Below, piece by piece: positions 3,001 through 55,480 of a stretch of 64,000 nt of DNA. A program made the position numbers and the translations under genes. The DNA is from Prosopocoilus inquinatus (taxonomy: Eukaryota > Arthropoda > Insecta > Coleoptera > Lucanidae). The notes below the pieces were generated by a model. That model did no database searches and was not told the origin of the DNA. It was given only the letters and a program-made list of their open reading frames with translations. The stretch's first letter is position 1, and each line of letters begins with the position of its first letter. The stretch covers positions 17,199,001 through 17,263,000 of the forward strand of contig CM069877.1 in assembly GCA_036172665.1 (NCBI GenBank), in the 5' to 3' direction.

Positions 3001-5174
3001 AATTGAAACCCGTGGGCACACATGACGTCCATGCCCAAAATTGCCTCGTCCTCTATGTCTGCTACCAGTGCACGGTGTTTTATTGGAGTTGAACCAATGG
3101 TGATGATAACCTCTACTTCACCGTGGACAGTTGCTGATGTTCCAGTTGCAGTTTTCAGTCTCCACTTGGTCGGCTCGGTGCGTCCAGATGACTTAATGAC
3201 GTCGGGTCTTAGGATGGTCTTCGTCGCACCCGTATCCAACAACATGGTGTGAGGAATGTCATCAATGGTAACATCCACGAAGACACTGCTGGTTAACTGC
3301 CGTAGAAATATTACTTGGTTGGCTTTCGTCTTTGGGGGCCTTTGAATACGGGTCGACGTTTGCCCCTCTGCACCGACCCGGCTTAGTTTAACTGTGGCTT
3401 CCTTGGATCCTGTCTGGGCTTTGGACATCGCCTGCGAACATGTCCTTCCTCCTGGCAATTCCAGCGGCTTCTTCTGCTTGAAGACCTGTTCCACAATGCG
3501 GCGAACATCCTCGGCGGTGGCATACTCCCTGGCTCGCTCCTTTATAGTAGATCCCACCTTGGCGTTAGCGGATTCTTCCTCTTCTTCCTCTTGGAAGTCC
3601 ATAGCCGCTCGCACCTTGACATGCCCTCTTGAGACTCGTCTCGCTGCTTCAAATTCCAAGGCATAAGCCAATGCGTTCTTGGACGTCTTCGGATGGGTCA
3701 TTCTCAATGCCTGCTGGTTGTCTGGGTCACGGATTCCATCTATGAAGGTCTGCACCGTCAAACATTTGAGGAATTCAACGGGAGCTGTGGGATATGCCAA
3801 CTGGGCCAGACGCGCTACGTCCGCTTCGAATTCTTGAAGACTTTCTCCGGATTTCTGACAGCGATTCCTCAACTGCGCATGGTATACCTCGGTCAGATGG
3901 GCCTGTCCGTAACGCATTTCCATCCTATTCACCAGCTTGTCGAAGTCTTCTTGTTCCTCTGGCGGCATCGTCTGTAGCACATCGATAGCGTCTCCTCTCA
4001 AGGCCACAATTAACGAAGTGGCTTTTTCGCTGGCCGTCCATCTGTTTGCCTTTGCTGCTGCTTCGAACTGTTTGAAGTAGTTGGGCCAAGAAGATTTTCC
4101 ATCGAACGTCGGTGGTTTTATTTTTAATTTCGAATTTTCTGCTGGTCCTTCCACAATTCGGGTTTCATTATTTTCTAGTGTTTCTACTGGTGGCTGATCC
4201 CTGAACACTCGCAACCCCGCCATGATTTGTTCCAGACTTTTGATTTTGTTATCCTGCTGAAATATTATTTCCTCCACATTTTCTTGCAGGTTCTTTGTTT
4301 CTTCTGATATTTTTGCCACTAATTTATCTTCGAGTCCTTTTGTTTGTTCTAGAAATTTCTCGTCAAAATTTCTGGAGTGCTCTCGAAATTTCTCATCTAA
4401 GTCTCTAGATTGTTCCAACAATTTATTCTGTAATTTGTCCAAATTTCCAGATTGTTCTAGAAGCTTCTCCTCTAAATTTCTGGATTGTTCCATCAATTTA
4501 GTTTGCAACTCGTCTTTGAAGTTTACAGATTGTTCTCGAAGTTCGTCCTTGAAATTTCCAGATTGTTCTAGAAGCTTCTCCTCTAAATTTCTGGATTGTT
4601 CTCGAAGTTCGTCCTTGAAATTTCCAGATTGTTCTAGAAGCTCTTCCTCTAAATTTCTGGATTGTTCTCGAAGTTTCTCTAAATTTCCAGACTGTTCTTG
4701 AAACTTCTCGTCCAAATTTCTGGATTGTTCTCGAAGTTCGTCCTTGAAATTTCCAGATTGTTCTAGAAGCTTTTCCTCTAAATTTCTGGATTGTTCTCGA
4801 AGTTTCTCTAAATTTCCAGACTGTTCTTGAAACTTCTCGTCCAAATTTCTGGATTGTTCTCGAAGTTCGTCCTTGAAATTTCCAGATTGTTCTAGAAGTT
4901 TTTTCTCTAAATTTCCAGACTGTTCTTGAAACTTCTCGTCCATATTTTTGGATTGTTCTCGAAATTCATCCTTCAAGATTTTATTAAAATCGGCGGGACC
5001 ACACGAAATTTCGAAAAGGAACGTCTCTGGATCTTCACCAGCTGTCAACAAATCGCATCGGAGACGCTGTTGAAGTGTGCCTTTCAAACCACCGGTTTCT
5101 AACTCTCGTTCTTCCAATTCGGTTTTTAATTCGGCCACTTTTAAGTCTTTCAACAACACTTTTCTCGTAGCCAT
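1..5174 (-). pseudogene. Gag-Pol polyprotein pseudogene of gypsy copy 1
   Basis: A single open frame of 1462 residues runs from the ATG at 5174 to an in-frame TAA at 786-788, just after the integrase zinc-binding region. The same frame then appears to continue towards position 1, so this is one reading frame with a nonsense mutation. Visible parts are a SAP-like N-terminus, an 11-12-residue coiled-coil repeat tract (about 4330-4970), the gag core, a protease with a DTGATK motif, RT, RNase H (DTDASN) and the integrase HHCC region. Unlike copy 2, gag and pol are fused: relative to copy 2, 8 nt are missing near 3466, which removes the first cysteine of the zinc knuckle and puts gag into the pol frame. 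The RT motif reads YLDN instead of YLDD (codon 1983-1985). The integrase stretch that is out of frame in copy 2 is in frame here. Confidence 0.9.
4330..4970 (-). repeat. Coding minisatellite in Gag (coiled-coil repeats), expanded
   Basis: Roughly 33-36-nt units encode variants of EQSRNLEEKLL and EQSGNFKDELR repeated more than fifteen times. The same place in copy 2 (about 34945-35125) has only about six or seven units. The units look like a hendecad-type coiled coil, probably for Gag multimerisation (inference). Confidence 0.85.
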
Positions 5175-5252
5175 TGTTTTTTCCGATACTGTACTTATTT
5201 AATAATCTGATTAAATTTAATTTACTTTAAATTGTTTATTTATTTGCACAAA

Positions 5253-5269
5253 CCCGCACACCGACACCA
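5253..5269 (-). other. Primer binding site of gypsy copy 1
   Basis: It lies 1-2 nt inside the 5' LTR on the minus strand and starts TGGTGTCGGTGTGCGGG. TGG complements the CCA end of a tRNA, as expected for a reverse transcription primer site. I could not name the tRNA. Confidence 0.6.
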
Positions 5270-5270
5270 C

Positions 5271-5619
5271 TGTTACGTTTCTAGGGTTTAAATTTATTTA
5301 TTTAAACGAATAAAACACTCGATAAAAACTTAACCGTAATTTAATAAAGCTTAAAAACTAATTTATTTGTAACAATTTATTTTCACACTAAAATCTAACT
5401 TCGACGATCGCTGTTCGAATTCGACTGACTGGTGAGTCAACTCCGGGCGATTTTATATCATTTGCTGCCGTCTGGAATTCGCGACGCTGGAAGATTCGAG
5501 TTTGTTCCATCGCCGGAAAAGTCTAGGCTGTTCGATGTCGACCCCGGTGGCGTGGCAGCCAATGACGCATAACGAACCGACTTCTTAACGTCTTGAGCTA
5601 AGCCGGGTGGCGCGCCACA
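5271..5619 (-). repeat. 5' LTR of gypsy copy 1
   Basis: It runs from TGTGGCGCGCC at 5619 (minus strand) to GTAACA at 5271, with TG...CA ends, about 349 bp. The downstream half is nearly the same as the 326-bp LTRs of copy 2. The upstream half (U3) differs by many substitutions and some extra length. The target duplication cannot be tested because the other end is outside the window. Confidence 0.88.
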
Positions 5620-6005: not shown

Positions 6006-6990
6006 TTCATATACAAAGTCTCCCAAGCTTTTAGGGAAAGGAACATACATACAAACAGTCTGAAAATTAATACACTGCCCTAGGAGAAACTGACTTTTTA
6101 AGACTAAAATATTTTCACATTTATATCACTTCCGGTTATGCCGGAAGTCGCCATTAACTTTCTTATTTTAAACAGAATGCTACATTTTTTATTGCAAATT
6201 CCGATTCTGTACATTATTCTAATTAAAAATTGTTAAGACTTCCCTACACTCAAATGTAACAGTTTTTGAAATATCTTGAAATTTCTTAAAAGAAATATTT
6301 CGGTAACTTCATTTAAGAAATTGTAATTACACTATCAAATTTCAAGATTCGAGTTGCTTGTGGTTTGAGAGAATAACGTTCAGCCTTTCAAATCATATCC
6401 CAGTTATTCCTGAAAAATTCACAGGTTGGTTAAAATGCGGTGTCAAACCTTGTTACGATTAACTGCCCAAAACTCAGTTTTCGTAAATGGAACACCGTGC
6501 ATATTTTTGCATCATGTAATACAGAATCAAATTCTACATCGATTAGTGGTAGCATTTCCTATACCTATTTTTTTAGTTTTCTTGTTATTTATTACAAAAA
6601 AAAAACAGTCCTGTAAATATTATTACTCAAAATGGCGAGGATTTCACAGATCAAAAATTTGAATGCTTTCATATTTAACAAGCTTAAGGCTTTGGTAAAA
6701 TCTATGAATTTGTCTTTAATCAATACTAGTAGTCAGCAGTGTGCGTTCCATACGATTATTATTTCTAAGAATTTGAATGAAAGTTTATAAAGTATTTTAG
6801 TTATGTTTATGGTTTGCAATATCTACAAATAAAGGCAATTTCAAACATCCTGTAATTTGGAAGTAGGTTATTATTGTAGGTTATTATTAAATGATAACCA
6901 ACTTCAATTACAAATTTTGTAACTTGGGATTTTAAAAAATGTATTTTGCCACCAACCTGACAATAAAATTGTGAGTGTTTTAATGTCCTT
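6006..6990 (+). repeat. Dispersed repeat family A, copy 1
   Basis: About 980 bp, matched collinearly by 28905-29880 in the same orientation. Shared blocks include a segment before CACTTCCGG, the segment AAATGGAACAC with CATATTTTTGCATCATG, and the end GCCACCAACCTGACAA. A 78-residue open frame inside (6426-6662) has a related frame in the other copy (29334-29561), but both are hydrophobic, short and start differently. This is probably a non-autonomous element. Confidence 0.75.
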
Positions 6991-12379: not shown

Positions 12380-15072
12380 TGAGGAACTGAACATTTTACA
12401 CCGAAATATTCAAAGCGTCCAATATAAAACAGAAGAAATTGAATTATTAATTGATAGTCTGAATATCGATATTCATATTTCGGCATTATCGGAACATTGG
12501 CTGAAAGCAGAGCAACAGGAATTTATCAAACTGGATAAATACCTATTAGTCTCCTGCTATTCTAGATCCAAACAAAATGGAGGTGGTTCTTGTATTTTTG
12601 TGGCTAAGGGACTTTCATTCGAATGTTGGCAGGATTTGCAAGTTAAAAGCTGTGAATCTGTATTAGAGTGTAGCGCAGCTAAATCTGCATAACTAAAAAT
12701 TCTTGTAATTAACATATATAGACCTCCAAAGGGAGATTTGAATGTTTTTTTCGCTATATTAGAAGATATATTGGAAACAGCATTTCGAATTTGCAAAAGA
12801 TACACTGTACTCTTATGTGGTGACTTCAATGTAAATTTCTTGAATACATTTAATATTTCAATGAAGAACTTATTGGATCTTACTATTGCCTTTAATTTGA
12901 AACCTACACTATTTACCCTGACAAGAATTACAAAAAATTCTGCTACTCTACTAGATAATGCTTTCGTAAACAATGATGAGATCCACAGCAAAGTTCTTTA
13001 TACAGCCTTATCAGGTCTTCTAGGGCAATTAGTAACTATAAAATATCGAACAAAACCGAAAGAAGAAATTGCAGAAGAAGCTAGGCGTATAAGTAACAGT
13101 AAACTGCAAAATATAGCGAATTATCTAAGTAAAATAGATTGGTCTTTTTGCACTAACATGACAAATGTAAATGACTGCTACAATTATTTATACAACGCTA
13201 TATTCACATCTTTTAATAACACCTGTCCCATAGAAAATATAAAATGGGACAAATCTACCCAAAAAAGCTGGCTGACAAAGAATTTGAAAGATAAATGTGA
13301 TAAAAAGAGAGATTTTTATTAAATAATTTGATTATCAACAATACAACATACAACAAATAACACAAAGAGACAACAGGAGTTTGTACTGGAGGATATCGAA
13401 AAAAAAAACGATACCATAAAAGATAACATGGATACCTTAAATTTAATAAACAATTATTTTTTAAATGCATGTGAAAATATAAATGCAGGAAGGCAGGTAA
13501 ATGTAGAACTGGTAAAAATCAACCATAATTCTTGCTTTTTTGCTCCAACCAACTACCAGGAAGTAGCTCGAACTATAATGGATCTTAAGAAAACTTCTTC
13601 TGCGGGATACGATGACATACCTGTTGTGCTCCTGAAAAAAAAATGTTACCTTTATAGCAGAACCCTTGGCATATATAATAAATATGTCGTTGGAAATGGG
13701 TATTTTCCCAGATAAGCTTAAATAATCAGTTATAAAACCGATTTACAAGAAAGGAGACAGGACAAAAATTACAAATTATAGACCGATAGCGCTTCTCTCA
13801 AATATCTCAAAAGCATTTGATAAGATTATACACACCAGAATGAATCATTTCTTGACTGCCAATAAAATTATGTGTCATCATCAAAGTGGCTACCAAAAAG
13901 GTCGTTCCACCGCTACAACAATTTATCAAATTGTTTCCGAAATACTTGAACCAATTAATGCTGAAGATACTGCTGTGGGAATGTGTATGGACCTGTCCAA
14001 AGCCTTTGATAGTGTGGATCATCACGTTTTGCTGCAGAAACTGGAAACAATGGGATTCAGAAGTACGACATTACAAGTAATTAAATCTTACCTACATGAG
14101 AGAAAACAGTGTGTTGTGGCGAGAACTGAAGGAAAAAAAATTATTCTCCTCTTGGGAATATGTAACAAAGGGAGTTCCACAGGGATCCATTTTAGGTCCA
14201 TTCTTGACATTCCTAAATGACCTGCCAATAGTTCAAAGTAGTTTTACTGCTCTCTTCGCCGACGACACGTCAGTTGTTATTAAAGCTCCCAATATGGAAT
14301 TATTTGAAAAAAGTATTTGTAACTCTCTCAGTGCTCTAGAAGAATGGTTTAGTGCTAATAACTTAAAATTAAATTTAGAAAAAACAAATATATTAAGGTT
14401 TTCGCCAACTAAAATTGATAATATAAGATAGTATAAGAAGAAGTTCTCTTCCTTGGATTAAAGCTGGATTCATGTCTCAACTGGAAACCCCATGTAGATT
14501 ATCTAGCTGCTAAGCTTGGACCACTAAGTTATGCTCTTCGAAAGCTTGCTACTTCAGTCAATCAAGAAGCTGCTCTTTATGCTTATTATGCTTATGTCGA
14601 TTCAAGAATGAAGTATGGAATAATATTCTGGGGAAATTCGACCGACAAAGACAGGATCTTTAAGCTGCAAAAACGTTGCATCAGAAGCATTTTTAACTTA
14701 AATGTGAGAGAATCATGTCAATTTTTTTTCAAAACTAAAAAGATACATACCTTGTGTGGACTTTACATCCTCGAATGCGCTCTTTTCGTGAAAAAAAAAC
14801 ATTACAAACAATTTCAAGAAAAATACATATTAGATCATAATCACCATACACGCGGAAAAACAAACTGTTATCTTAATACACCTCAAACTAACTTGTCAAA
14901 GGTTCAGAGAAACGTCGTATTTCAATTGATAAAAATGTACAATGTTATTCCCTCAAAAATTAGAGATTTAACTTATCAACAATTCAAAGCTGTGCTACAA
15001 CGACATCTTCATAAAAGCGTTTTTTATTCTTACGATCATTTTTTTAAAACCAGCATTGTCTGTGATATTTAA
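12380..15072 (+). pseudogene. LINE ORF2 pseudogene (endonuclease and reverse transcriptase)
   Basis: The endonuclease part has ALSEHWL, INIYRPPKG and the CGDFNVNFL motif; the readable block is 12738-13322. The reverse transcriptase then reads across 13428-13715, 13840-14220 and 14096-14431, with HQSGYQKGRSTATT, DLSKAFDSVDH, GVPQGSILGP and the catalytic FADDTSV. The C-terminal block at 14608-15072 has KYGIIFWGNS and a Cys/His-containing tail. At least four frame changes and several stops interrupt the frame, so no full-length product is possible. Confidence 0.9.
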
Positions 15073-23840: not shown

Positions 23841-26247
23841 ACCAAACAAATACAAAGTAGCCTGGGAAATTATTAAGAGGTCAAAATAACGAAAAAGATT
23901 ATGTATCCCTCCAGTTTTTTTGACGAAGTCGGAAATGAATGGAAAGCAAATGAGAAAGCCACTGAGATTTTCACTGCTTATTTTCTTAACTCGGTTAAAA
24001 ACTCCAATTCCAGTAACCCACAAACATACGAATTTGGCCGAAGCAGGAAGGTATTTCCAACTATGCACCTAGAACCTGTATGCGAAGAGGAAATATTCTA
24101 CATAATAAAAAAGTAGCTTTGAAAAATTCAGCAGGTTCTGATGGAATACCTTGTAAACTATTATCTTATTATTATTATTCCAGAAATTTCTCCAATACTC
24201 ACGCAGCTCATCAACGATTCCTTCGTGAATGGTATCTTTCCGATGAATTAAAAACTGCTTTAATAGTACCAGTTCATAAACATTACAGATATAAGTAACT
24301 ACAGACCAATTTCTCTGTTATCAATCTTTTAAAAAATATATGAAACTGCCTTTTCCAACAGACTGAAGAAATTTCTGGTTGCGAACAAAATACTCAACGA
24401 ACAGCAATTTGGCTTCCAAGAAGGAAAATCAACCAATGATGCAATTTGTACGTTTATAAATTTTGCCCTGGAATGCCTGGAGGATAGAAAGAACGTATGT
24501 GGAATTTTTTACGACCTAACCCGAGTGTTTGATAAATTCCTTTTGCTCAAATTAAATCACTTTGGAATTCGCGGGGTTGGGCTAAAATCCTATCTCTCTG
24601 ATCGCTATCAAAAGGTTGTTATCAATTTGGTTGGAGCTAAACATCATTCAAATCTTTTACCGATTACTCAAGGAGTACCTCAATGAAGCATCCTATGCTC
24701 TTTGCTTTTTTTGTTATTTACGAACGATCTGAATACGAACGCTCCTGCAAACTGTATGACTTCATATGTTGACGACACTTCTGCTCTTGTATCTGCAAAC
24801 AGCATATCAGAATTAAGCCATGCCGCTTCTGCTTGTGTTGCGGATATGGAAGCTTACTGTAAAAATAATGATTTATTGTTGAACGCCGAGAAAACAGAGT
24901 TCGTATTTTTGAATACAGCGGAAAAGAACAATAATCTATACGTGAGTTCTCATAAACACAGCTTGCGTCAAGTATATGTTACCAAGTTCCTAGGAATCAT
25001 CGTCGACAAAAATTTGAAATGGTATGATCACATTTGTTATATTCAAAAGAAATTAGCTACTAGTTGTTATATCTTATGGCAGTTAAGGCGCTCAGTTAGT
25101 ATTAATATATTACTTTCATATTATTATGCTCATATAAACTCTATATTGTCCTACGGAATCCTGTGCTGGGGAAATTCGCCTAAAATCAACGTTATTCTCA
25201 AAATGCAAAAAAGAACAATAAGAACTATTATGAACAAACCTCCAAGATTTTCTTGTAGGGAACTTTTTAAAGAAACTCAAATACTTACTGTTGTATCATT
25301 ATACACTGAGAATCTTATAAGAATGCACATAGTATTCATCAATGGCGGCTTTATTACAAATTCCAAATTTATTTTCTTCGCCATGGTTACCGTGCGTTTT
25401 TAGTAATGACACTACTGATTTAGACTTGTCAGATAGAATTAAATTGTTCTCTTGATTTATTGTAAAATGCATACAACCGCCGAAAAAGTAAAAATGTAGG
25501 TGCACGTTATTTTCAGATGAAGTTCATTGACAGAGGTCTTTGCGTTATTTGCCGCCAAATTTCCGGATAGATCAATTATTCCCTTCTTTAATACTTCCTA
25601 TGTGCAATTTGTAAATGATTCAGCATTGAGAATTGAGTAGTAACTATAGCAACGTAATGTTAAAACCTCTATGTGCAATTTTATATGATTCAGAAATGTA
25701 TTATCTGATCACGTAATTTTCGTCTATGTGCAGCGTTACAAGATTCTCACTGTATATTTTACATGCTGTTTCATATATAAAGAAAAATTTAACTTAATAA
25801 CTTGAGAACGTAACGCAATGTTAAATTACGCCAACATAGACTCACACTTTCCTCTAAAAACTTCTGTGTTATGTCCATTAAACTGTATAATCATCTGCCC
25901 AATGACATTAAAACACATTAAAACAATTAGCTCGCATTCCAATTCAAATCAAAAGTGCGGAAATATTTATTACGTAGCACCTTATATTCAACCGATGAAT
26001 TCTTTACCCTAAATTACAATACTGTGTGACGTTACGTTTTTTTTTTTATTTTATGTTTCTTTTGTCTGTTTGCAATTATATTCTTATCTTTAATTTGATT
26101 TTAATTTTAGTATGACATTAATTGAATAACAATAATTTTTTCTTTTACAAATATGTAAAGTTCATCTTATATCTTGTAATTTGTGACGCACCCTATATAT
26201 GTATATGTCTTATGAGAATAAATGACTTAATTATTTATTTATTTATG
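23840..26247 (+). mobile_element. Decayed LINE (Jockey/CR1-like), reverse transcriptase part
   Basis: 5'-truncated: it begins just before the RT domain and lacks the endonuclease. The end carries TTATTTATTTATTTA at about 26233-26247, a likely LINE tail. The stretch after 25450 is poorly readable, with loose C-terminal similarity only. Confidence 0.85.
23900..25403 (+). pseudogene. LINE reverse transcriptase pseudogene
   Basis: The readable order is KNSAGSDGIPCKLL, then SNYRPISLLS, EQQFGFQEGKST, FYDLTRVFDK (family DLSKAFD), a stop in the usual GVPQGSIL motif (near 24685), then 24702-25403 with the catalytic SYVDDTSALV, LLLNAEKTEF and SYGILCWGNS. At least three stops or shifts occur before 24700. 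The DLTRVFD block has lost the usual SKA residues. Confidence 0.88.
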
Positions 26248-28904: not shown

Positions 28905-29880
28905 TTAAAAGTTCTCGGGGAAAGGAACATACAAATATTCTGAAAATTAACACACTGCCCTAAGAGGAAGTGATATTTTAGAATAAAGTATTTTCACTTT
29001 TACATCACTTCCGGTTATACCGAAATTCGCAATTGACTTTATTATTTCAAACGGAATGCTATATTTTTTATTACAAATTCTGATTCTACACGTTTTTCCA
29101 AGCAAAAGTTGTTAAAACTTCCCTATACTTAAATGTAACGGTTTTTGAGATATCTTCGAATTTCTGAAAAAAAATATTTCGGTGGCCTTTCATTTCTGAG
29201 AATGTATTTACGATACCTTCAAATTTTAAAATTCAAGCTGCCTGTCGTTTGAAAGAATAATGTTCAGCCTTTCAAATCATATCTTAGTTGTCATTGAAAA
29301 ATTCACAGGCTGGTCATAATATGGTGTCGAACCTTGCTTTGTTCAACTGCCCAAAACTTAGTTTTCGTAAATGGAACACGCTACATATTTTTGCATCATG
29401 AGTTGCAGAATCAAATTCTACATCGATTAGTAGTAGCATTCCCTTACTTATTTCCATTAGTTTTTTTGTTATCTATTACAAGAAAAAACAGTCCTGTGAT
29501 TATTATTACTCAAAATGGTGTGGATTTCACAGATGAAAAATTTAAAAGCTTTCATATTTAATAAGCTTAAGGCTTTGGTAAAATCTGTGAATTTGTCTTT
29601 AATCAATACTAGTAGTCAGCAGTGTGCGTTTCATACGATTATTAGTTCTATGAATTTGAATTAAAGTTTATAAAGTGTTTTAGTTATGTTTATGGTTTGT
29701 AATTTCAACGAATAAAGGTAATTTCAAACATCTCGTAATTTGGAAGTAGGTTATTATTGTAGGTTATTATTAAATGATAACCTACTTCCATTAGAAATTT
29801 TGTAACTTGAGATTTTAACAAATGTATTTTGCCACCAACCTGACAAAATAAAATTGAGAGTGCTTTAGTGTTCTACTTTA
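28905..29880 (+). repeat. Dispersed repeat family A, copy 2
   Basis: Collinear with 6006-6990 with many substitutions and small indels. It ends GCCACCAACCTGACAAAATAAA. Its last 45 bp overlap the left arm of the inverted repeat that bounds the next element. Confidence 0.75.
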
Positions 29881-33423: not shown

Positions 33424-33750
33424 TGTTACGTTTCTAGGGTTTGAGTTTATTTATTTAAACGAATAAAACACTCGGTAAAAACTTAATCGTAATTTAATAA
33501 CGCTTACAAACTAATTTATTTGTAACAATTTATTTACACACTAAAATCTAACTTCGACGATCGCTGTTCGAATTCGACTGACTGGTGAGTCAACTCCGGG
33601 CGATTTTATATCTACTGCAGGCGTCTGGAAGTCTCGATGCTGGAAGATTCTAGTTTGCTCGATATAGGCCCCGAACGCGTGACGGCCTATGACACATCGA
33701 AGCGGACCGACTTCTTGACGCCTTGCGCTGAGTCAGGTTGGCTCGCCACA
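33424..33750 (-). repeat. Solo LTR of the gypsy family
   Basis: 327 bp, minus orientation, from TGTTACG at 33424 to CGCCACA at 33750. It resembles the copy 2 LTRs, with scattered differences. The flanks are ATAT (33420-33423) and CTAT (33751-33754), three of four bases alike, suggesting a degraded target duplication. It lies 555 bp from the 5' LTR of copy 2 in opposite orientation. Confidence 0.88.
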
Positions 33751-34305: not shown

Positions 34306-34631
34306 TGTGGCGAGCCAACCTGACTTAGCGCAAGGCGTCAGGAAGTCGGTCCGCTTCGGTGTGTCATCGGCCGTCACGCGGTCGGGCCCACATCGAACGG
34401 ACTGGAATCTTCCCGAATAGAGACTTCCAGACGCCAGCAAATGATATAAAATGGCCCGGAGTTGACTCACCAGGCAGTCGAATTCGAACAGCGATAGTCG
34501 AAGTTAGATTTTAGTGTGAAAATAAATTGTTAGAAATAAATTAGTTGTTAAGCTTTATTAAATTACGGTTAAGTTTTTATCGAGTGTTTTATTCGTTTAA
34601 ATAAATAAACTCAAACCCTAGAAACGTAACA
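34306..34631 (+). repeat. 5' LTR of gypsy copy 2
   Basis: TGTGGCGAGCC to CGTAACA. A TATAAA box is at 34445-34450 and an AATAAA signal at 34521-34526, giving a plausible promoter and polyadenylation layout for U3-R-U5. Confidence 0.95.
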
Positions 34632-34632
34632 G

Positions 34633-34649
34633 TGGTGTCAGGTGTGGGG
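34633..34649 (+). other. Primer binding site of gypsy copy 2
   Basis: TGGTGTCAGGTGTGGGG, one base after the LTR. It differs slightly from that of copy 1. Confidence 0.6.
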
Positions 34650-34732
34650 TTTGTGCAAATAAATAAACAATTTAAAGTAAATTAAATTTAATCAGATTAT
34701 TAAATAAGTACAGTATCGGAAAAAAAAAAACA

Positions 34733-36097
34733 ATGGCTACGAGAAAAGTGTTGTTGAAAGACTTAAAAGTGGCCGAATTAAAAACCGAATTGGAAGAACG
34801 AGAGTTAGAAACCTGTGGTTTGAAAGGCGCACTTCAACAGCGTCTCCGATCCGATTTGTTGACAGCTGGCGAAGATCCAGAGACCTTCCTTTTCGAAATT
34901 TCGTGTGGTCCCGCCGATTTTAATAAAATCCTGAAAGATGAACTTCGAGACCAATCCAGAAATTTAGAGGAGAAGCTTCTAGAACAATCTGGAAATTTCG
35001 ACAAATTACAAAATAAATTGTTGGAACAATCTAGAGACTTAGACGAGAAATTTCTAGAGCAATCCAGAAATTTCGACGAGAAACTTCTAGAACAGTCCGG
35101 AAATTTGAAGGGTGAATTTCTAGAACAGACGAAAGGACTCGAAGATAAACTAGTGGTAAAAATATCGGAAGAAACAAGAAACCTTCAAGAAAATGTGGAA
35201 GAAATAATATTCCAGCAGGATAATAAAATCAAAAATCTGGAACAAATCATGGCGGGGTTGCGAGTGTTCGGGGATCAGCCACCAGTAGAAGTACTAGAAA
35301 ATAATGAAACCCGAATTGTGGAAGGACCAGCAGAAAATTCTAAACTGAAGATAAAACCACCAACGTTCGATGGAAAGTCTTCTTGGCCCAACTACTTCAA
35401 ACAGTTCGAAGCAGCAGCAAAGGCGAACAGATGGACGGCCAGCGAAAAAGCCACTTCGTTAATTGTGGCCTTGAGAGGGGACGCTATCGATGTGCTACAG
35501 ACGATGCCGCCAGAGGAGCAAGAAGACTTCGACAAGCTGGTGAATAGGATGGAAATGCGTTACGGACAGGCCCATCTGACCGAGGTATACCATGCGCAGT
35601 TGAGGAATCGCTGTCAGAAATCCGGAGAAAGTCTTCAGGAATTCGAAGCAGACGTTGCGCGTCTGGCCCAGTTGGCATATCCCACAGCTCCTGTTGAATT
35701 CCTCAAATGTTTGACGGTGCAGACCTTCATAGATGGAATCCGTGACCCAGACAACCAGCAGGCATTGAGAATGACCCATCCGAAGACGTCCAAGAACGCA
35801 TTAGCTTATGCCTTGGAATTTGAAGCAGCGAGACGAGTCTCAAGAGGGCATGTCAAGGTGCGAGCGGCTATGGACTTCCAAGAGGAAGAAGAGGAAGAAT
35901 CCGCTAACGCCAAGGTGGGATCTACTATGAAGGAGCGAGCCAGGGAGTATGCCACCGCCGAGGATGTTCGCCGCATTGTGGAACAGGTCTTCAAGCAGAA
36001 GAGGCCGCTGGTTTGTTGGAATTGCCAGGAGGAAGGACATGTTCGCAGGCGATGTCCAAAGCCCAGACAGGATCCAAGGAAGCCACAGTTAAACTAA
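34733..36097 (+). CDS. Gag protein of gypsy copy 2
   Basis: 454 residues from the ATG at 34733 to TAA at 36095-36097. Residues 1-45 (KDLKVAELKTELEERELE and following) look like a SAP motif, a DNA-binding helix pair. Residues about 70-185 form a coiled coil with a few EQSRNL-type repeats. Residues about 205-330 are the retrotransposon gag core (WPNYFKQFEAAAKANRW). Residues 428-441 are an intact CCHC zinc knuckle (CWNC...GHVRRRC). The protein should form the particle and bind RNA. The start is supported by copy 1, which begins with the same peptide. The gene ends at a slippery site, so pol is presumably made by -1 frameshifting in the active ancestor. Confidence 0.93.
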   Translation: MATRKVLLKDLKVAELKTELEERELETCGLKGALQQRLRSDLLTAGEDPETFLFEISCGPADFNKILKDELRDQSRNLEEKLLEQSGNFDKLQNKLLEQSRDLDEKFLEQSRNFDEKLLEQSGNLKGEFLEQTKGLEDKLVVKISEETRNLQENVEEIIFQQDNKIKNLEQIMAGLRVFGDQPPVEVLENNETRIVEGPAENSKLKIKPPTFDGKSSWPNYFKQFEAAAKANRWTASEKATSLIVALRGDAIDVLQTMPPEEQEDFDKLVNRMEMRYGQAHLTEVYHAQLRNRCQKSGESLQEFEADVARLAQLAYPTAPVEFLKCLTVQTFIDGIRDPDNQQALRMTHPKTSKNALAYALEFEAARRVSRGHVKVRAAMDFQEEEEEESANAKVGSTMKERAREYATAEDVRRIVEQVFKQKRPLVCWNCQEEGHVRRRCPKPRQDPRKPQLN

Positions 36098-36129
36098 GCC
36101 GGGTCGGTGCAGAGGGGCAAACCGACCCG
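36088..36129 (+). promoter_or_regulatory. Probable programmed -1 ribosomal frameshift signal
   Basis: GTTAAAC (36088-36094) is in gag phase, directly before the gag stop. Five bases later a perfect 9-bp stem (CGGGTCGGT, 36100-36108, with ACCGACCCG, 36121-36129) closes a 12-base loop. Copy 1 keeps the slippery site and a 7-bp version of the stem. The site would move ribosomes into the -1 frame, which is the pol frame in copy 1. In copy 2 the 3' arm lacks 2 nt relative to copy 1, so the shifted frame ends at 36216. Confidence 0.75.
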
Positions 36130-39100
36130 TATTCAAAGGCCCCCAAAGACGAAAGCCAACCAAGTAATATCCCTACGGCAGTTAACCAGCAGTATCTTCG
36201 TGGATGTTACCATTGATGACATTCCTCACACCATGTTGTTGGATACGGGTGCGACGAAGACCATCCTAAGACCCGACGTCATTAAGTCATCTGGACGCAC
36301 CGAGCCGACCAAGTGGAGACTGAAAACTGCAACTGGAACATCAGCAACTGTCCACGGTGAAGTAGAGGTTATCATCACCATTGGTTCAACTCCAATAAAA
36401 CACCGTGCACTGGTGGCAGATATAGAGGACGAGGCAATTTTGGGCATGGACGTCATGTGTGCCCACGGGTTCCAATTGGACTTAAAGCGTGGCGTGATGG
36501 CGGTCAATAATGAGGAGTTGGTTCTACATCAACGAGGGGACGTGGCCGCTCGAGTAGTCCTCGCTAAAGACGTTGTATTACCCAGCAGGACTGAGGTTAT
36601 CGTCGACGCGAAACTGGACGGTGTTTTTCAAGATGGGCAAGTCATTATGGTTGAACCTAATACTGATGATCAAAGGATTGGAAGAGGAGTCCTCGTTGGA
36701 AAAATGTTGTTGACGGCGAAGAAGGAAGTACCTGTCCGCCTGATGAACGTCAATTGTTTCTCCGTCAATATCAAGAAAGGAACCATCTTGGGAAGCTGCA
36801 CCATGGTGTCCTCCATCTCCCGCCACCTTGAAGCAAACGTGCCAGAAGCGAAAGTCCCAAGGAAATTATGGGAAATGGTTATGTCAACAGCCCAGGAATT
36901 GACTCCAGACCAGAAGACAAAAGCAAAGAATCTGATCGGCCGTTATCAAGATGTATTCGAGGTAGAAGATGGATCCAAGGGAAGAACTGATGTCGTGAAA
37001 CACAAAATAGAGACTGGAGAAGAAAGACCTATCCGTCAAGCTCCAAGGCGATTACCGTTGGCAAAGCGTGAGGAAGCGGAACGCATTATTCGCGAGATGG
37101 AAAAGGATAATGTGATAGAACCATCAAGCAGCCCGTGGGCGTCACCAGTAGTGCTTGTGAAGAAGAAGGATGGGTCCACCAGATTCTGTGTAGACTACCG
37201 GTTACTCAACAATGTCACCAAGAAGGACAGCTATCCCCTGCCACGGATTGATGATACCCTGGACACCCTGGCCGGCTCAAAGATCTTCTCAACTTTGGAC
37301 TTAAAGAGTGGATATTGGCAAGTGGAGCTGGCGCCCGAAGATCGAGAAAAGACGGCGTTTTCCATTGGTATGGGTCTGTGGCAGTTCACAGTGATGCCAT
37401 TCGGATTATGTAATGCCCCAGCGACATTCGAGAGGTTAATGGAGACGGTTCTGAAAGGTCTGTCCTGGACAACGTGCATGGTGTACCTTGACGACATAAT
37501 TGTCGTGGGAAAGACGTTCGACGACCACCTAAGGAACCTGGAAGGAGTGTTCCAGCGGCTTCGCGGAGCTGGGCTAAAGCTTAGCCTCAAGAAGTGTCAC
37601 CTGTTCCAGAAGGAAGTGAATTACCTGGGGCACATTGTTAATGGAAATGGAATCGCCGTGGACCCTGTGAAGATTCAGGTGGTGAAAGACTGGCCAACTC
37701 CCAGAAATAAACACCAAATAAGGAGTTTCCTTGGCCTGTGCACTTACTATCGGCGCTACGTTCCTGGATTTGCAGACATTGCTAAGCCGTTAACAAAACT
37801 CACTGAAGAAGGTCGTCCATTTGAATGGGACCAACAGTGTCAAATTGGCTTTGAACAACTAAAGCAGTACTTGGTTAGTGCTCCTATTCTGAGTTATCCT
37901 CTCCCGGAAGGCAAGTTCGTCGTGGACACAGATGCTAGCAACGTTGGGATTGGTGGCGTACTCTCCCAGATACAAGAGGGGCAAGAGAAGGTGATCGGCT
38001 ACTTCAGTAAAGTCCTATCAAAGCCGGAACGAAACTATTGCGTCACAAGAAGGGAATTGCTAGCCGTCGTAAAAACGATAGAACACTTCTACAAGTACTT
38101 GTATGGTAGACGCTTCCTGCTGAGGACCGACCACGCCGCTCTAAAATGGCTTCTCCGTTTCAAGAACCCAGAAGGGCAAGTTGCACGATGGATCGAACGA
38201 CTTCAGGAGTACGATTTTGAAATTCAGCATCGGGCAGGAACTAGCCATCGAAATGCCGATGCTCTGTCGAGAAGACCCTGTGCCGAAGACTGTAAGCACT
38301 GTAGTCGTTTGGACGAGAAAGTAGCCACGACTGCGAGGACAGCCATTGTTGATGACAAATGGCAAGGCGAAGAACTGCGAAGAGACCAGGAGAACGACCC
38401 GGATTTGAAATTAGTGCTAGAATGGAAAAGCAGGGACGCGAGGCCTACCTGGGAAGAGGTAGCACCATGTGCACCGTCCGTAAAATCGTACTGGGCGCAG
38501 TGGGACTCCATAGTGTTGGATCGTGGTCTTCTGAGACGAAGCATAGAGAATCAGGAAGGCATGGAACAGAAGACACAGTTACTGATCCCCAAGAATAGGG
38601 TGCCAGAAGTTCTGAGGGAACTTCACGATGGAACTTCCGGAGGGCATCTGGGAGTTAAGAAGACTATGGAGAAGGTGCGCGAAAGATTTTACTGGGTGAA
38701 CTGCAAGGAAGACGTGAAGGATTGGTGCAGAAAGTGTACAGTTTGCGCAGCCAGTAACGGTCCCCACATTCGGGGTAAGGCTCCCATGAGACAGTACAAC
38801 GTTGGAAGTCCTTTTGAGAGAGTTGCCATCGATGTAGCCGGCCCGTTTCCAGAAACGAATGGTGGAAACAAGTACATCGTCGTGGTAATGGACTACTTTA
38901 GCAAGTGGGTTGAAGCTTACGCCCTACCTAACCAAGAGGCAGTCACTATTGCGGAAGTCCTTGTCAGGAATGGATCAGTCGGTATGGTGCACCTATGGAA
39001 CTGCATTCAGACCAAGGAAGGAACTTTGAATCGGCCTTGTTCAAGAACGTGTGTACTCTGCTCGGCGTACGAAAAACTAGAACAACTGCACTCCACCCAG

Positions 39101-40351
39101 TCGGACGGAATGGTGGAAAGGTTCAATAGAACCATCAACCGACATTTGTCCAAGGTCGTTTCCAATCATCAGAGGGACTGGGACACGTACATCCCCCTGT
39201 TTCTAATGGCATACCGCTCATCTGTTCATGAGACAACAGGGGAGACTCCCGCGAAAGTGGTATTCGGGCGAGAGCCGAGACTGCCCTGCGACCTGAAGTT
39301 TGGTGTGAAGCCTGGCGAAGTCTCTGCCGACGAAGATTACGTGAGCAAATTACGCAGGAAAATGGATGATATCCACAACCAAGTGCGTCACAATATACAG
39401 ACGGCCAGCGATCGGATGAAGGAGCACTATGACATCAACGCTCAACACGGGGGATACCAACCTGGAGCACTGGTCTGGCTTTATAACCCCCAAAGACGTC
39501 GAGGCCTCTCCCCAAAATTACAGACCTCTTGGGAAGGTCCTTACAAAGTGATGAAACGGATCAACGACGTCGTTTACCGCATCAAGAAGGTCCCCCATGG
39601 CAAACCCAAAGTAATCCACTTCAACCGGATAGCCCCTTACCATGGAGAAGCAGATGAAGGGACAGTACAAAGGGCGCAAGTTTCCGAAGTGAACTTCGAA
39701 ACCTTCATGTCTCATCACGCCGAAGGAAGCAAGGCACGGTTTGGAGTGACCACGGAGAAGCAACAAGATCTCTTTAAAGTGCCACTGGAGTACAGTCTGG
39801 CCCACTGCGTAGCAGAAGACCTGAAAATGTCCAAAGGAATCGCTCAGGTGTTTAGGAAGAAATTTGGCCAAATCGAGGAGCTACGAAGACAGCATCCCGT
39901 GGTAGGCAAGAGCTTGCAGATCATTGATTCGACGGCAGATCGGAGGCGCCACGTGCATTATTTAGTCACTAAGAAGACATCAAGCGGTAAACCTGACTAT
40001 GTGACTATGTGGAGAGCCCTATATAACCTGAGGAGACAGCTAATAGAGAACCATCAGATGAAGTTAGCCATCCCCAAATTGGGCTGCGGATTGGACGGAC
40101 TAGACTGGAGAGTAATCCGAAGCATGCTGGAAGTCATCTTCCACAGAACGGCAATTGAAGTCCTAGTCTGCAGCCACCACCCACAGGCAACAGTCAGCAA
40201 CAGCAAAACCGTAGACTGTTACTTCTTCCAGACGGGAAGTTGCAAGAATGGGCCAGCATGTAGATTCCGACACCCTCCTTCAAGACTATCACCAGGAACA
40301 TTTCGAGACGAAACGTTTCTAAGAGGGGGGCAGTGTGGCGAGCCAACCTGA
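36098..40351 (+). CDS. Pol polyprotein of gypsy copy 2, with C-terminal macro domain and CCCH finger
   Basis: The open frame 36107-40351 (about 1414 residues, no ATG at its start) follows gag. Domains by residue: aspartic protease with DTGAT at 46-50; reverse transcriptase about 300-480 with the catalytic YLDD at 460-463; RNase H about 600-730 (DTDASN); integrase HHCC zinc region about 840-885; integrase core from about 900 with the first Asp in AIDVAG; GPY/F module about 1125-1185; macro domain about 1222-1357; CCCH zinc finger 1371-1390. Residues about 954-998 of the integrase core are out of frame, because 1 nt is missing near 38966 and 2 nt near 39098 relative to copy 1. This removes the region of the second catalytic Asp. 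The stop lies 18 nt inside the 3' LTR. Pol is in the gag frame here, so it needs stop readthrough, or the copy is defective. Confidence 0.93.
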   Translation, partial: AGSVQRGKPTRIQRPPKTKANQVISLRQLTSSIFVDVTIDDIPHTMLLDTGATKTILRPDVIKSSGRTEPTKWRLKTATGTSATVHGEVEVIITIGSTPIKHRALVADIEDEAILGMDVMCAHGFQLDLKRGVMAVNNEELVLHQRGDVAARVVLAKDVVLPSRTEVIVDAKLDGVFQDGQVIMVEPNTDDQRIGRGVLVGKMLLTAKKEVPVRLMNVNCFSVNIKKGTILGSCTMVSSISRHLEANVPEAKVPRKLWEMVMSTAQELTPDQKTKAKNLIGRYQDVFEVEDGSKGRTDVVKHKIETGEERPIRQAPRRLPLAKREEAERIIREMEKDNVIEPSSSPWASPVVLVKKKDGSTRFCVDYRLLNNVTKKDSYPLPRIDDTLDTLAGSKIFSTLDLKSGYWQVELAPEDREKTAFSIGMGLWQFTVMPFGLCNAPATFERLMETVLKGLSWTTCMVYLDDIIVVGKTFDDHLRNLEGVFQRLRGAGLKLSLKKCHLFQKEVNYLGHIVNGNGIAVDPVKIQVVKDWPTPRNKHQIRSFLGLCTYYRRYVPGFADIAKPLTKLTEEGRPFEWDQQCQIGFEQLKQYLVSAPILSYPLPEGKFVVDTDASNVGIGGVLSQIQEGQEKVIGYFSKVLSKPERNYCVTRRELLAVVKTIEHFYKYLYGRRFLLRTDHAALKWLLRFKNPEGQVARWIERLQEYDFEIQHRAGTSHRNADALSRRPCAEDCKHCSRLDEKVATTARTAIVDDKWQGEELRRDQENDPDLKLVLEWKSRDARPTWEEVAPCAPSVKSYWAQWDSIVLDRGLLRRSIENQEGMEQKTQLLIPKNRVPEVLRELHDGTSGGHLGVKKTMEKVRERFYWVNCKEDVKDWCRKCTVCAASNGPHIRGKAPMRQYNVGSPFERVAIDVAGPFPETNGGNKYIVVVMDYFSKWVEAYALPNQEAVTIAEVLVRNGSVGMVHLWNCIQTKEGTLNRPCSRTCVLCSAYEKLEQLHSTQSDGMVERFNRTINRHLSKVVSNHQRDWDTYIPLFLMAYRSSVHETTGETPAKVVFGREPRLPCDLKFGVKPGEVSADEDYVSKLRRKMDDIHNQVRHNIQTASDRMKEHYDINAQHGGYQPGALVWLYNPQRRRGLSPKLQTSWEGPYKVMKRINDVVYRIKKVPHGKPKVIHFNRIAPYHGEADEGTVQRAQVSEVNFETFMSHHAEGSKARFGVTTEKQQDLFKVPLEYSLAHCVAEDLKMSKGIAQVFRKKFGQIEELRRQHPVVGKSLQIIDSTADRRRHVHYLVTKKTSSGKPDYVTMWRALYNLRRQLIENHQMKLAIPKLGCGLDGLDWRVIRSMLEVIFHRTAIEVLVCSHHPQATVSNSKTVDCYFFQTGSCKNGPACRFRHPPSRLSPGTFRDETFLRGGQCGEPT
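39770..40185 (+). other. TARG1/OARD1-like macro domain encoded in pol
   Basis: Pol residues about 1222-1357. The segment beginning SLAHCVAEDLKMSKGIA, then KKFG, then YLVTKK, then PKLGCGLDGLDW follows the order and spacing of the TARG1/OARD1 macro domain, which removes ADP-ribose from acidic residues. In the human enzyme the catalytic pair is Lys84 (in LITKK) and Asp125 (in GCGLD). Both have counterparts here, Lys1289 and Asp1330. The length of about 135 residues fits a whole domain. Function in the element is inference: binding or removal of ADP-ribose marks on element or host proteins. Confidence 0.85.
40217..40276 (+). other. CCCH zinc finger at the Pol C-terminus
   Basis: Residues 1371-1390 have the spacing C-X7-C-X5-C-X3-H (CYFFQTGSC, GPAC, RFRH), the classic RNA-binding CCCH type. 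Only 24 residues remain before the stop. Confidence 0.85.
40322..40333 (+). other. Polypurine tract of gypsy copy 2
   Basis: AGAGGGGGGCAG just upstream of the 3' LTR, the usual plus-strand priming site. Confidence 0.7.
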
Positions 40352-40659
40352 CTTAGCGCAAGGCGTCAGGAAGTCGGTCCGCTTCGGTGTGTCATCGGCC
40401 GTCACGCGGTCGGGCCCACATCGAACGGACTGGAATCTTCCCGAATAGAGACTTCCAGACGCCAGCAAATGATATAAAATGGCCCGGAGTTGACTCACCA
40501 GGCAGTCGAATTCGAACAGCGATAGTCGAAGTTAGATTTTAGTGTGAAAATAAATTGTTAGAAATAAATTAGTTGTTAAGCTTTATTAAATTACGGTTAA
40601 GTTTTTATCGAGTGTTTTATTCGTTTAAATAAATAAACTCAAACCCTAGAAACGTAACA
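40334..40659 (+). repeat. 3' LTR of gypsy copy 2
   Basis: 326 bp, read by eye as identical to the 5' LTR, followed by GTAT. Confidence 0.95.
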
Positions 40660-42125: not shown

Positions 42126-44220
42126 CAACGTTTTCTAAACTTTTAGGTTTCGCGACCCCATTTTGAACTGTATTATGATTCACGCCCCCCTACCCGGCGA
42201 ATCTCGAACTTGAACACTGATATTAACCGATTACAAATAAAATGCTTTCATAGAATTTATTAAATATTTAAGACTCGTCCTTGCGGTTCAAAACTGAAAA
42301 TAACAGCACATTTACTTTATTGAAGCTTGTTAGCATATATCCTGACACGTTTTTTTTTTCAAAAAAATCACCCACCCCATACAAGAAAATAAAAATTTCC
42401 GTCGACTCCATTCAGATTTAAATAAAATTTTAAAAAGAAACAGCAAGTGTAGATGTACTAATAATGTTTTATGCAGATATAAAATTTTGTTAAATCTTGA
42501 TAATTTATTATTCTATTTGTCTTTATTTTATTTTATTTTTTAATAATACCTCGATCGTCTTTTTGTTTCCTGATTCAATTTCAGTTTGATTCTCTTTTAA
42601 TCAAACTCAATTAAAAATTCGCCAATATCCTGATTCGATTTCATTTTATGTTAATTTTATAGATTTTTTTTGTCTTATCTTCGTCAAGGATCATCTTTTT
42701 TTAAATACCTTATTTGACTTCATTTCATTTAATTTTCAATATGATCAACTGATCGTGTTTTGTTTTTGCTTTTAATATATTTTTTCGTTTTGTTTTTATT
42801 TTTTAACTACCATTTACCATTATTTTCGCTGATTTGTTTTAATTTTCGCTTATTGAGTGTGAATTTATTTTACACTTTAATCCCGTCGGTTGATCGCCAT
42901 TTTATTTTCTCTTTTATTCGATTCAACTTTATTTTGTTTTTAAATTAATCATAGATAGCCCTGTTTTGTTAAAATTAACGACCAAGTTTGTCAATTTTTA
43001 AATCAATTTGACTTATTTCTAGTTTTATATAATTTTTATTTTGGTACTAAATTTATCAACTTTATTTTTATACAATCCTCATTTGAGTCGATTTAATATT
43101 ATTTTATTTTACATTTTAATTCCGCCGATCGATCCCCATTTTTGGTGAATTTATTTTATTTATTTTATTTATTTTATTTATTTTATTTATTTTATTTATT
43201 TTATTTATTTTATTTATTTTATTTATTTTATTTATTTTATTTATTTTATTTATTTTATTTATTTTATTTATTTTATTTATTTTATTTATTTTATTTATTT
43301 TATTTATTTTATTTATTTTATTTATTTTATTTATTTTATTTATTTTATTTATTTTATTTATTTTATTTATTTTATTTATTTTATTTATTTTATTTATTTT
43401 ATTTATTTTATTTATTTTATTTATTTTATTTATTTTATTTTTTAATCACTAAATTGAATTAAATTTTTGGTTCCGATGAAAGTCAGTTTATGTCGATTTG
43501 ATTCAATGAGTGTCATACAATTTTTATTATCGTCCTGTCTTGTTTGACGATCGTCTTTTGGTTTTATTTCATTCGATTTTATTCGTATTTTAGGAGTGTT
43601 TTGATTTTGATAATCAATTGAACGTTTTTTTTTCTCTTTTATTCGAGCTAAATCAAATTCATTTAATATTGTATATAATTTTTTACTTTTTTATAAACTA
43701 TTCAGCAAGACCTTCGTTACACAAGACTTAACAACTCCGACACCCTGAAAGACCCCTAATAAAGGTTCATTGACCCCTTTCAAGTTTTTATCGATACCGA
43801 TCCCGCCGTCTTAGACAAAATATAAGGTTTTAATTAAGCAGTTTTAAAAAAATAAAATTTGTTTAAGAAAAAGAAAAGCGATTATAATTGCAGATTTCAA
43901 ATAAGTATAAAGATACCAAGTGTTCCGTTTAAAAAATTAAAATTTCAGTTTATATCTCGGTTACGTAATGTTCATTTGTTTTTCTGTAAACATCAGCAAA
44001 AACTTTGAGTCAGTGTATATAATTTTTATAATGAAGGCTTCTTTCTAAAGTCAAAAATAAAGAAGTTAAAGGAGGTAGGAATACGCACGTGGTCGCCCTA
44101 TATAAGCAATTTCTTGTAAAAAATAAGATGATAAATTAGTTACAATTTGCGTTCAATTGTTTTATATTTATTCTGCTGCTTCCCCCCAGGGGGGCGCGCC
44201 CCACAGTTTGGGAAACGCTG
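42126..44220. mobile_element. hAT-like non-autonomous element containing a 9-bp repeat array
   Basis: The left end CAACGTTTTCTAAACTTTTA and the right end, inverted, CAGCGTTTCCCAAACTGTGG are diverged inverted repeats, each followed inward by a run of C and GCGCG. The flanks TCTTAAGC (42118-42125) and CCTTTAAC (44221-44228) agree at five of eight bases, a degraded 8-bp duplication as in hAT. The interior is T-rich with no transposase. Confidence 0.6.
43148..43444 (+). repeat. Nonamer array (TTTATTTTA)n
   Basis: About 33 nearly perfect copies of TTTATTTTA over roughly 297 bp. The array can be read as (FYL)n in one frame, which is not a protein. Its uniformity suggests recent expansion. Confidence 0.95.
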
Positions 44221-53072: not shown

Positions 53073-55480
53073 CTACTCGTCATATCCTACCGAACCTGTT
53101 GGACAAACTTCGTCTTCTTCGTCTTGATCGTTTAATGATTTTAAATTCATATAGAAAAGTCGACTATTGGGATGTATATAACACAACAAACTTTTGATAT
53201 CATCCAATTTCTTTTTTGAAAGAGGAAGGGGATATGAGTTGTGTAATTTTTCTAAAGTCGGTAATGCTTCATTCGACAGTAGTTGTCCTTTTTTCGTTTT
53301 TGTTATATCCCACACTTTAAATTCTTCTTCTTCCAGAAAGCTCTGTTTGTAAAAAATTTTTCCAGGATTATCTTTAATGTATCTAAAATAGTTTGCTTTT
53401 AGAAACGACATTTGTACCCCCTCTGAATTTTTTTTTCGGTTTATAAAATGTGCTTTTTGAAGAGCACTTATGTTATAAAAATCATCCTGTGACATGTCAA
53501 TCACTTTAATTCCCCCTTTTCGTTGTATACTTCTGACAAGTGTAGACCAGTCTCTAGGCATTTCTATGTCCATTGTCGTTTGTTTTTTTGCCTTTTCAAT
53601 TGAGGCGTGAATCGAATCTGCTTCGAGGTGTGTGTGTCCAGATATTAAAAATTTATGATTAATTTCTTTTAGATTGTGACCTGGTGGCAAAAATTGAAAT
53701 ATCAAAGAAAGCATTGTTGCAACATAAATGTTTTTGTTTTGTCCTGAGCAGCAATCACTATATAAATTTAGGAAAGTTGTAGATAGGGGCAAGTTTCTTA
53801 TGTATTTTAAAAGACACGACGCAATTTCTTGTCCACCACGGCCTGAGGTAGTTTCATCCCACATAAAACAAAAGGATTTGTTCTCATTACCGTTTGCTAC
53901 CTCATAGACAGTTAAATTGAACACCCACAATTGCCTTTTATAAAATGCAATTCCACTCTGTAGGTGAGGAGTCGGCAAGCACTTTTGTAAATCAAACATC
54001 GCAGTAACAATGGTGCCATCACTTTTGCTTTTTTCTTTATCTTTCCTTTTTTCATTGTATGCGTTTTCTGTTGCCTTTAAATGATCTCCTTTTTCCCTTT
54101 CGTAATTAATTCTCTCTCCTTCATCATTGGAAGCTTTAATCAAAATTTCTAATTTATCGCATTTGCCACAGGTGTCGTTGTGAGGTGGATGGAATGAGAT
54201 GTTAAACTCTGACACAAAAACCTTCCTATAAAAGTGATCAGAAACAGGAGTTTTCTCAACTTCTTTGCAGTGCTGTACGTAAAGCCTATACATTTGTTGG
54301 ATCGAAAGATCCGGAGATAGGTATCGCTTGTCAGAGTGTGACCTGGAATAATGGCTTTTGTAGGCCGGAAATTTCAATATATGTTGCATAACAATCTCTT
54401 TGTCTTCTTCTGCTATTTTAGGGTGATTTCCATGCCTTCCTCTTTTGTCTGGTCTACATATACCGCTTCCAGATCTACATTTCTCAACTGTGTACCTTAG
54501 TCGTTTAAATCCTATATCGAAGGTATTCAGAAACATTACTTTACAAACTTGTATAGGTAATCCTTCTTTTTTTAACAGGTAGCTACGACTGAATGATCTT
54601 CTGCTCTCTTCATTAGGTTTAGTACGTCGTAGCTTTTGAAATTCTGTTACTGACGTGGACAAAAGTTGGGTTTGTTCGTTATAGGTTAAACGATAAAAAT
54701 CGTTAAAGAGATTTAACCTTTCCTCATGGTTGAACTTTTCGTAACACTTTCTTCTACATGTACAAGGTGCTTTTAAGCGTCTTGCTCTAACGATCTTATC
54801 CTTTTTTGTTTTATATCCACTGCCGTTAGCTCTTGCAACCTTTCGTTTATTGACTTTCCAGTTACGCTCATTTCTGGTTCGTTTCCTAGACTTTCTTCTT
54901 TCCTTTGGCAATAGTTCTTCTTCAGAGTTGCTACTTTCTTCTTCACTTTCTGCACTGTAAGTAGTGTCATCAGAGTCAGTTGCAAAGGGATCGGTCTTTT
55001 CCTCATTGCTATCATAATCCTTGTCCTATAAATTGTACTTTTTTAATTACAAGTTTCGCTTAAATAAATATAAACAAAACTTACAGCTTGCTCTTTTTGA
55101 TCTGCTGACTCGCTGATAGACTCGCCCAGGTTTTGATTTCCGTAATAAACAGTAGTTTCGTCATTCTTCTCTTCAGAATTGTTATTGTTCTCCAATACAT
55201 CGTTGCTATTCATTGCCGATATCGGAGTTTCCTAAAATAAAAACGAATACAAATGAAAAGGTTCAGAAAAACTTTATGTTTAAGATTTACTTACAGACTG
55301 AGTGTCGTTGCCTTTTATCACGCCTAGAAGTAAACATTCTGATGGTGGACAAGGATTTGTTAAGGAACTGAAGCAGCTACCAGATGTTTGTCTGCCTTCA
55401 GTATGAACGATGCTCTTTAAAGCAGCTTGAACCATTTTCTGGCTACGTGACTGTCGCAATTTTTCATTTTGTAGGGACAT
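53073..55480 (-). CDS. Candidate transposase, RNase H-like (DUF7869-like), three exons
   Basis: Exon 1 55295-55480, exon 2 55085-55231, exon 3 53073-55025 join in phase 0 to 761 residues. The donors are GTAAGT(A) and the acceptors TTTTAG and TTATAG. The ATG at 55480 has an in-frame stop upstream, and a 5'UTR intron (55552-55491) is possible. Residues 1-150 are polar and acidic, followed by a basic block (KERRKSRKRTRN), a Cys pair (CTCRRKC) and then HPPHNDTCGKCDKL, a likely zinc-binding site. The core has FDLQKCLPTPHLQ, MWDETTSGRGGQEIASC, LYSDCCSGQNKN and GHTHLEADSIHASIE. The Asp of DLQK, the Asp of SDCC and the Glu of LEAD could form a DDE-type triad (inference). I recall these motifs from DUF7869 proteins. 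The lack of stops and the perfect TIRs suggest recent activity. Confidence 0.85.

Follow-up and report, generated by a model that had tools for sequence, protein, structure and literature searches.

Introduction

Ty3/gypsy elements (Metaviridae) can carry domains beyond their core enzymes, and the accessory domains named in the relevant passages of PMC6338049 are a chromodomain, a DnaQ-like exonuclease and a viral helicase, with no macro domain among them there. Captured domains are nevertheless on record in retroelements. Orchid Ty3/gypsy elements hold an AlkB demethylase acting on N6-methyladenosine (PMC9289625), and PMC4977317 credits Basta et al. (2009) with fish epsilon-like retroviral sequences that have macro-domain reading frames. 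Among cellular macro-domain enzymes, human TARG1 (OARD1, C6orf130) is reported to be specific for glutamate and aspartate linkages, and the Drosophila orthologues were not seen to remove mono-serine ADP-ribose (PMC10238386). TARG1 also removes the ADP-ribose placed on RNA ends by PARP10 or TRPT1 and, as cited there from earlier work, clears it from phosphates at DNA breaks (PMC6582358); K84 is its catalytic lysine, and the K84A variant does not rescue cells in which DarT ADP-ribosylates DNA (PMC8501950). Here we analyze a stretch of 64,000 nucleotides from the beetle Prosopocoilus inquinatus (Lucanidae; assembly GCA_036172665.1, contig CM069877.1, positions 17,199,001 to 17,263,000 of the forward strand), hereafter the window, which contains a complete long terminal repeat (LTR) retrotransposon of the Ty3/gypsy type at 34306-40659 on the plus strand. 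The Pol protein of this element ends, behind integrase, in a TARG1/OARD1-type macro domain followed by a CCCH zinc finger, and sequence comparisons support the view that a host-like ADP-ribosyl hydrolase was captured by the element.

Results

A TARG1-type macro domain and a zinc finger behind integrase

Pol extends about 230 residues beyond the integrase C-terminal module (Integrase_p58_C in Pfam, pol residues 1144-1177). The interval 39770-40280 named in a preliminary description of this DNA takes in nearly all of the macro domain and finger, but the whole extension is larger, at 39647-40351. When used as a single-sequence query, pol residues 1181-1414 match human C6orf130/TARG1 with an E-value of 3.2e-28, the match spanning residues 34-174 of the extension. 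Homology covers the whole macro domain (39746-40177), the fold is nearest to TARG1/DarG among macrodomains, and identity is 36-37% to human TARG1 and reaches 48% with OARD1-like proteins of insects. In the motif LVTKK, the lysine (codon 39971-39973) falls opposite position 81 of chain 2eee; as the numbering of 2eee lags that of 2l8r by 3, this position corresponds to K84 of the full-length protein. With the same shift, the aspartate of GCGLD (40094-40096) aligns with D125, a residue with a catalytic role in TARG1. These results uphold the earlier identification of a TARG1-like domain with both catalytic residues. A viral-type (MacroD-like) macro domain was also considered and set aside, its Z score being lower than that of TARG1 in a comparison that leaves other families possible.

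Profile searches recommended in the preliminary description succeed for the finger but not for the macro domain. On the extension alone, zf-CCCH scores 28.0 bits against a cut-off of 20.5, and the finger at 40217-40273 has the C-x7-C-x5-C-x3-H spacing already reported. The Pfam Macro profile (PF01661), in contrast, reaches 18.4 bits against a cut-off of 22, so annotation by that cut-off misses the macro domain; the same profile reaches an E-value of 0.01 in 24 of the 28 members of an alignment of element and host rows. Matches of the finger in the PDB are headed by CPSF4 chains (6e-16 as the total for five fingers, with an independent E-value of 0.0016 for the best CPSF4 finger taken singly), with muscleblind-like and other CCCH proteins following at 2e-5 to 2e-4. 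Because the leading score sums five fingers and other CCCH proteins follow, we do not claim descent of the finger from CPSF30.

Conservation was assessed in a selection of 148 element-type proteins, comprising P0001-P0125 plus 23 others that contain integrase or finger sequence; P0121 is included by kinship alone, and host-like rows are excluded. The lysine matching K84 is kept in 147 of these proteins, P0114 being gapped at this position, and the aspartate matching D125 likewise in 147, with another residue in P0076. Both belong to the 14 invariant columns among the 146 of the macro domain in 24 rows made non-redundant at 90%, a set from which one row with fewer than 150 filled positions had been dropped. 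The element proteins also keep the positions of the ADP-ribose pocket. The four finger ligands are kept in 143, 139, 136 and 132 of the 148 proteins, the remainder being mostly gaps.

Distribution among beetles and genome copies

A protein search finds 132 Pol-length proteins that carry the extension. Among the matches listed (120 of 132), all but six come from Aromia moschata and Molorchus minor, and further searches add Pyrocoelia, Gonioctena, Leptinotarsa and Exocentrus. Aromia (Cerambycidae) and Gonioctena (Chrysomelidae) belong to Cucujiformia and Pyrocoelia (Lampyridae) to Elateriformia, so that the extension, with an open frame and its active site, spans two beetle infraorders. No named non-beetle element appears among the matches listed (120 of 132 in one search, 120 of 5613 in another), and a scan of IMG/VR with the extension as query confirmed no relative.

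In the source genome (649.6 Mb, 173 contigs), scoring covered 150 of 1499 first-look candidates. Extension residues 1-233 or 1-234 are matched at 97% or more in all 150 places, 146 have no stop within the extension, and 39 are held by an open frame of at least 1,867 aa. Among thirty copies, that of the window included, the 3' flank takes 29 different forms. TAT makes up the last three of the four bases that follow the LTR in 24 of 29 copies (ATAT 14, GTAT 8, CTAT 2), a count that covers the 3' side only, omits one copy with an unclear LTR end and includes two copies that share a flank; integrase behaves as if it prefers NTAT sites.

A second copy of the family (L093) lies at 1-5510 on the minus strand of the window. 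Its gag and integrase frames are disturbed, with one stop in integrase, and its extension, just beyond the left window edge, is 98.5% identical to that of the complete element over 996 bp reaching into integrase. The 3' LTRs are 82% identical with gaps counted and 90% (290/322) without.

Origin of the macro domain

The tree contains 50 macro domains (that of the window, 20 of 148 relatives and 29 others), and no root was inferred. All element rows lie on one side of a branch with support of 100/96. Nearest to this clade is an aphid protein (96/83), and next come three beetle OARD1-like proteins from Aromia, Photinus and Harmonia (80/76, not firm); seven further host-labelled rows are contig sequences. 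The three beetle host domains diverge from each other by 35-42%, and six element domains diverge by 39-49% from that of the window, levels compatible with an ancient capture or with more rapid evolution. The suggestion in the preliminary description that a gypsy-type element captured a host-like ADP-ribosyl hydrolase is supported because the fold, the catalytic residues, the single element clade beside insect OARD1-like genes and the element-wide distribution agree. The finger, however, seems to have been acquired separately, since none of the three beetle host proteins shows a CCCH pattern.

Two proteins in these searches deserve separate mention. The Leptinotarsa gene model P0125, named ADP-ribose glycohydrolase OARD1-like, starts with integrase C-terminal sequence and, judged from this, is a fragment of a retroelement that was given a host-gene annotation. 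The host-labelled row P0225 (456 aa, with double-stranded RNA-binding domains) lies outside the element clade and is probably viral, its length equalling that of VP8 from Kadipiro virus, a mosquito virus. The best viral fold match to the macro domain of the window is this same VP8 (BFVD A0A8E0KJF2), at 40% identity. P0225 and VP8 perhaps represent another capture of a TARG1-class domain, by a virus.

Sequence constraint

Identity to six relatives is 51-61% in the macro domain, 24-42% in the linker (39647-39745) that joins it to the integrase C-terminal module and evolves fast in this comparison, 48-58% in the finger and 71-81% in the integrase C-terminal module; reverse transcriptase, which three of the six hold, is 83-86% identical. 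Constraint on the macro domain is therefore above that on the linker and below that on the core enzymes. Between the second copy and the complete element, the macro domain has 3 synonymous and 6 non-synonymous changes. The ratio of non-synonymous to synonymous polymorphism (pN/pS) is 0.56 for the macro domain and 0.65 overall in 30 genome copies, and 0.33 and 0.36, respectively, in 90 of the 150 places (those 30 and 60 picked). The comparison of selection across copies proposed earlier thus yields ratios but is uninformative, and we give it no weight, because the figures differ, the numbers are small and both sets were ranked by protein similarity.

Architecture of the element and other features of the window

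The element is assigned to Ty3/gypsy by its LTRs, its target duplication and the order protease, reverse transcriptase, RNase H, integrase. The 5' LTR (34306-34631, TG...CA) and the 3' LTR (40334-40659) are each 326 bp long and do not differ at a single position, and GTAT flanks the element on both sides. A probable primer binding site starting with TGG, its extent guessed, adjoins the 5' LTR at 34633-34650. Gag (34733-36097; SAP domain, CCHC knuckle and 33-nt repeats) ends in TAA, the single stop between gag and pol (36107-40351), which share one frame in this copy. Pol encodes protease, reverse transcriptase, RNase H, the integrase H2C2 motif, a damaged integrase core and the integrase C-terminal module, followed by the macro domain and the finger. 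A polypurine tract at 40321-40330 lies directly before the 3' LTR and is read in frame as part of the tail of pol, and a similar LRRGQC-type tail occurs in aligned relatives. No env frame is present, and there is no room for one because pol stops 18 nt inside the 3' LTR; a Pfam search at an E-value of 0.1 found no chromo family. The copy in the window is probably not autonomous, since its integrase core, at residues about 954 to 997, is read in a different frame from that of the second copy; its macro domain and finger are open and intact.

A piece at 33424-33750 (minus strand), about 550 bp upstream of the element, is 91% identical to its LTR and is perhaps a solo LTR. The 33-nt repeats of gag lie at 34941-35139 and 4333-5004 and differ in number between the two copies. 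Elsewhere the window has a perfect array of ATTTATTTT at 43149-43440 (32 copies of 9 nt, 100% matches), a 612-aa open frame at 53073-54911 (minus strand) with a DUF7869 match (E-value 2.6e-7), and a dispersed repeat pair at 6097-6896 and 28976-29779, about 22.9 kb apart and 84-93% identical in three pieces. Open frames at 12738-13322 and 24702-25403 have weak endonuclease and reverse transcriptase matches, both below the Pfam cut-off, and are perhaps pieces of non-LTR elements. An Rfam gathering scan and ARAGORN gave no matches over the window.

Discussion

We propose that an insect OARD1/TARG1-like gene entered a beetle lineage of Ty3/gypsy type, probably in a single event, and became joined to the integrase C-terminus, followed by a CCCH finger, so that the (Gag-)Pol polyprotein ends in integrase, macro domain and finger. 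The macro domain most likely functions as a mono-ADP-ribosyl hydrolase, as predicted from its sequence. Through its tether to integrase it would work in cis, stripping ADP-ribose from aspartate and glutamate residues of element proteins and from the element's phosphorylated DNA or RNA ends, these being known TARG1 substrates. The marks might be placed by host enzymes of the PARP1/2 or TRPT1 type on exposed complementary DNA or RNA, or at integration breaks, and the finger may hold the macro domain on nucleic acid. We give this explanation as a whole a probability of about 45%. We prefer, with modest confidence, a domain that works on the complex and ends of the element itself to a general immune antagonist because a domain tied to integrase sits at DNA ends and breaks. 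Several observations weigh against the proposal. The tree is unrooted, so that the case for transfer from host to element depends on OARD1 being widespread among animals; two of 17 aligned element relatives (P0122 and P0124) run beyond the macro domain without a recognizable finger; and the macro domain evolves faster than reverse transcriptase and the integrase C-terminal module, and so looks accessory. In addition, pN/pS is 0.37 for private changes and 0.34 for widely shared ones, which is no proof of selection, and a role in binding only is possible.

Chromodomains of chromovirus integrases bind methylated histones, and the macro domain might, by analogy, be a reader and not an eraser, one that recognizes ADP-ribosylated chromatin or proteins at sites where PARP1 is active or DNA is broken and directs integrase to them. 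It occupies the same place as the chromodomain, C-terminal to integrase (PMC3605345), the ADP-ribose pocket is kept, and chikungunya virus in mosquitoes is reported to need binding by its macrodomain and not hydrolysis (PMC12632316). The lysine and aspartate are, however, kept almost everywhere, which would exceed the needs of a pure reader, and local target choice already tracks the short NTAT motif; we consider this explanation unlikely.

It is similarly doubtful that the domain counteracts a host defence of PARP type directed at viruses or transposons, as the preliminary description had proposed. Macrodomains of RNA viruses do counter innate immune responses (PMC7232374), and TARG1-like folds also occur in viral proteins, that of Kadipiro virus VP8 being the best match. 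The analogy with vertebrate PARP defence is nonetheless weak because most vertebrate PARPs are absent from insects, according to PMC10221186, in which insect-specific alphaviruses are also described as lacking the activity. Guidance to RNA by the finger, the other half of that proposal, is likewise tentative: its PDB matches spread over several CCCH proteins, and two relatives have no recognizable finger.

We regard as rather improbable a scheme in which ADP-ribose serves as an integration address or checkpoint, whereby a tethered reader and eraser would sense PARP-marked breaks or chromatin and remove the mark, hiding the intermediate from repair or letting repair resolve it. A passenger or decayed domain with no present function would explain the faster evolution and the absence of the finger from some relatives, but the open frame and active site persist over two infraorders while the linker falls to 24-42% identity, and we think this very unlikely. 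An assembly join of a retrotransposon to a host OARD1 gene, or a one-off fusion, has a negligible chance, since the extension sits between identical LTRs flanked by a target duplication, is followed immediately by the polypurine tract and 3' LTR, recurs in all 150 scored places and with different 3' flanks, and is present in other beetles; nothing was found in favor of it. With a strong TARG1 match in addition, none of the three refuting conditions set out in the preliminary description applies.

If the proposed action in cis holds, the element would connect retrotransposon integration with ADP-ribosylation in insects, which have few PARPs, and it offers a ready system for asking whether PARP or TRPT1 marks limit retroelements. 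These results also carry a warning that gene models named "OARD1-like" or "C3H1-type" in beetle annotations can be retrotransposon pieces.

Comparison with known systems

In the literature searched, mainly titles and the beginnings of abstracts, we found no description of a macro domain in an LTR retrotransposon. The element domain shares its fold and catalytic lysine and aspartate with TARG1 but is fused behind integrase, precedes a CCCH finger and forms a separate clade. With other Ty3/gypsy elements the beetle element has in common the order of its enzymes, the LTRs, the short target duplication and the integrase C-terminal module, to which it adds the macro-CCCH C-terminus while lacking env. 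Like chromoviruses it has an extra domain behind integrase, this being a macro domain and not one with a Pfam chromodomain match. Kadipiro virus VP8 likewise has a TARG1-like macro domain, perhaps alongside an RNA-binding domain should P0225 be VP8 itself, as the equal length of 456 aa suggests; VP8 does not belong to a retroelement, however, and the P0225 macro domain lies outside the element clade. The fish epsilon-like endogenous retroviruses, compared here by the citing description only, also captured a macro domain, but as additional reading frames in retroviruses (PMC4977317). The orchid elements are again gypsy elements with a captured host eraser, there shown to be active, although theirs is an RNA demethylase in a separate reading frame and in a plant (PMC9289625). 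A retroelement with a captured enzyme is therefore of a known kind, whereas a TARG1 enzyme behind the integrase of a beetle gypsy family appears to be new.
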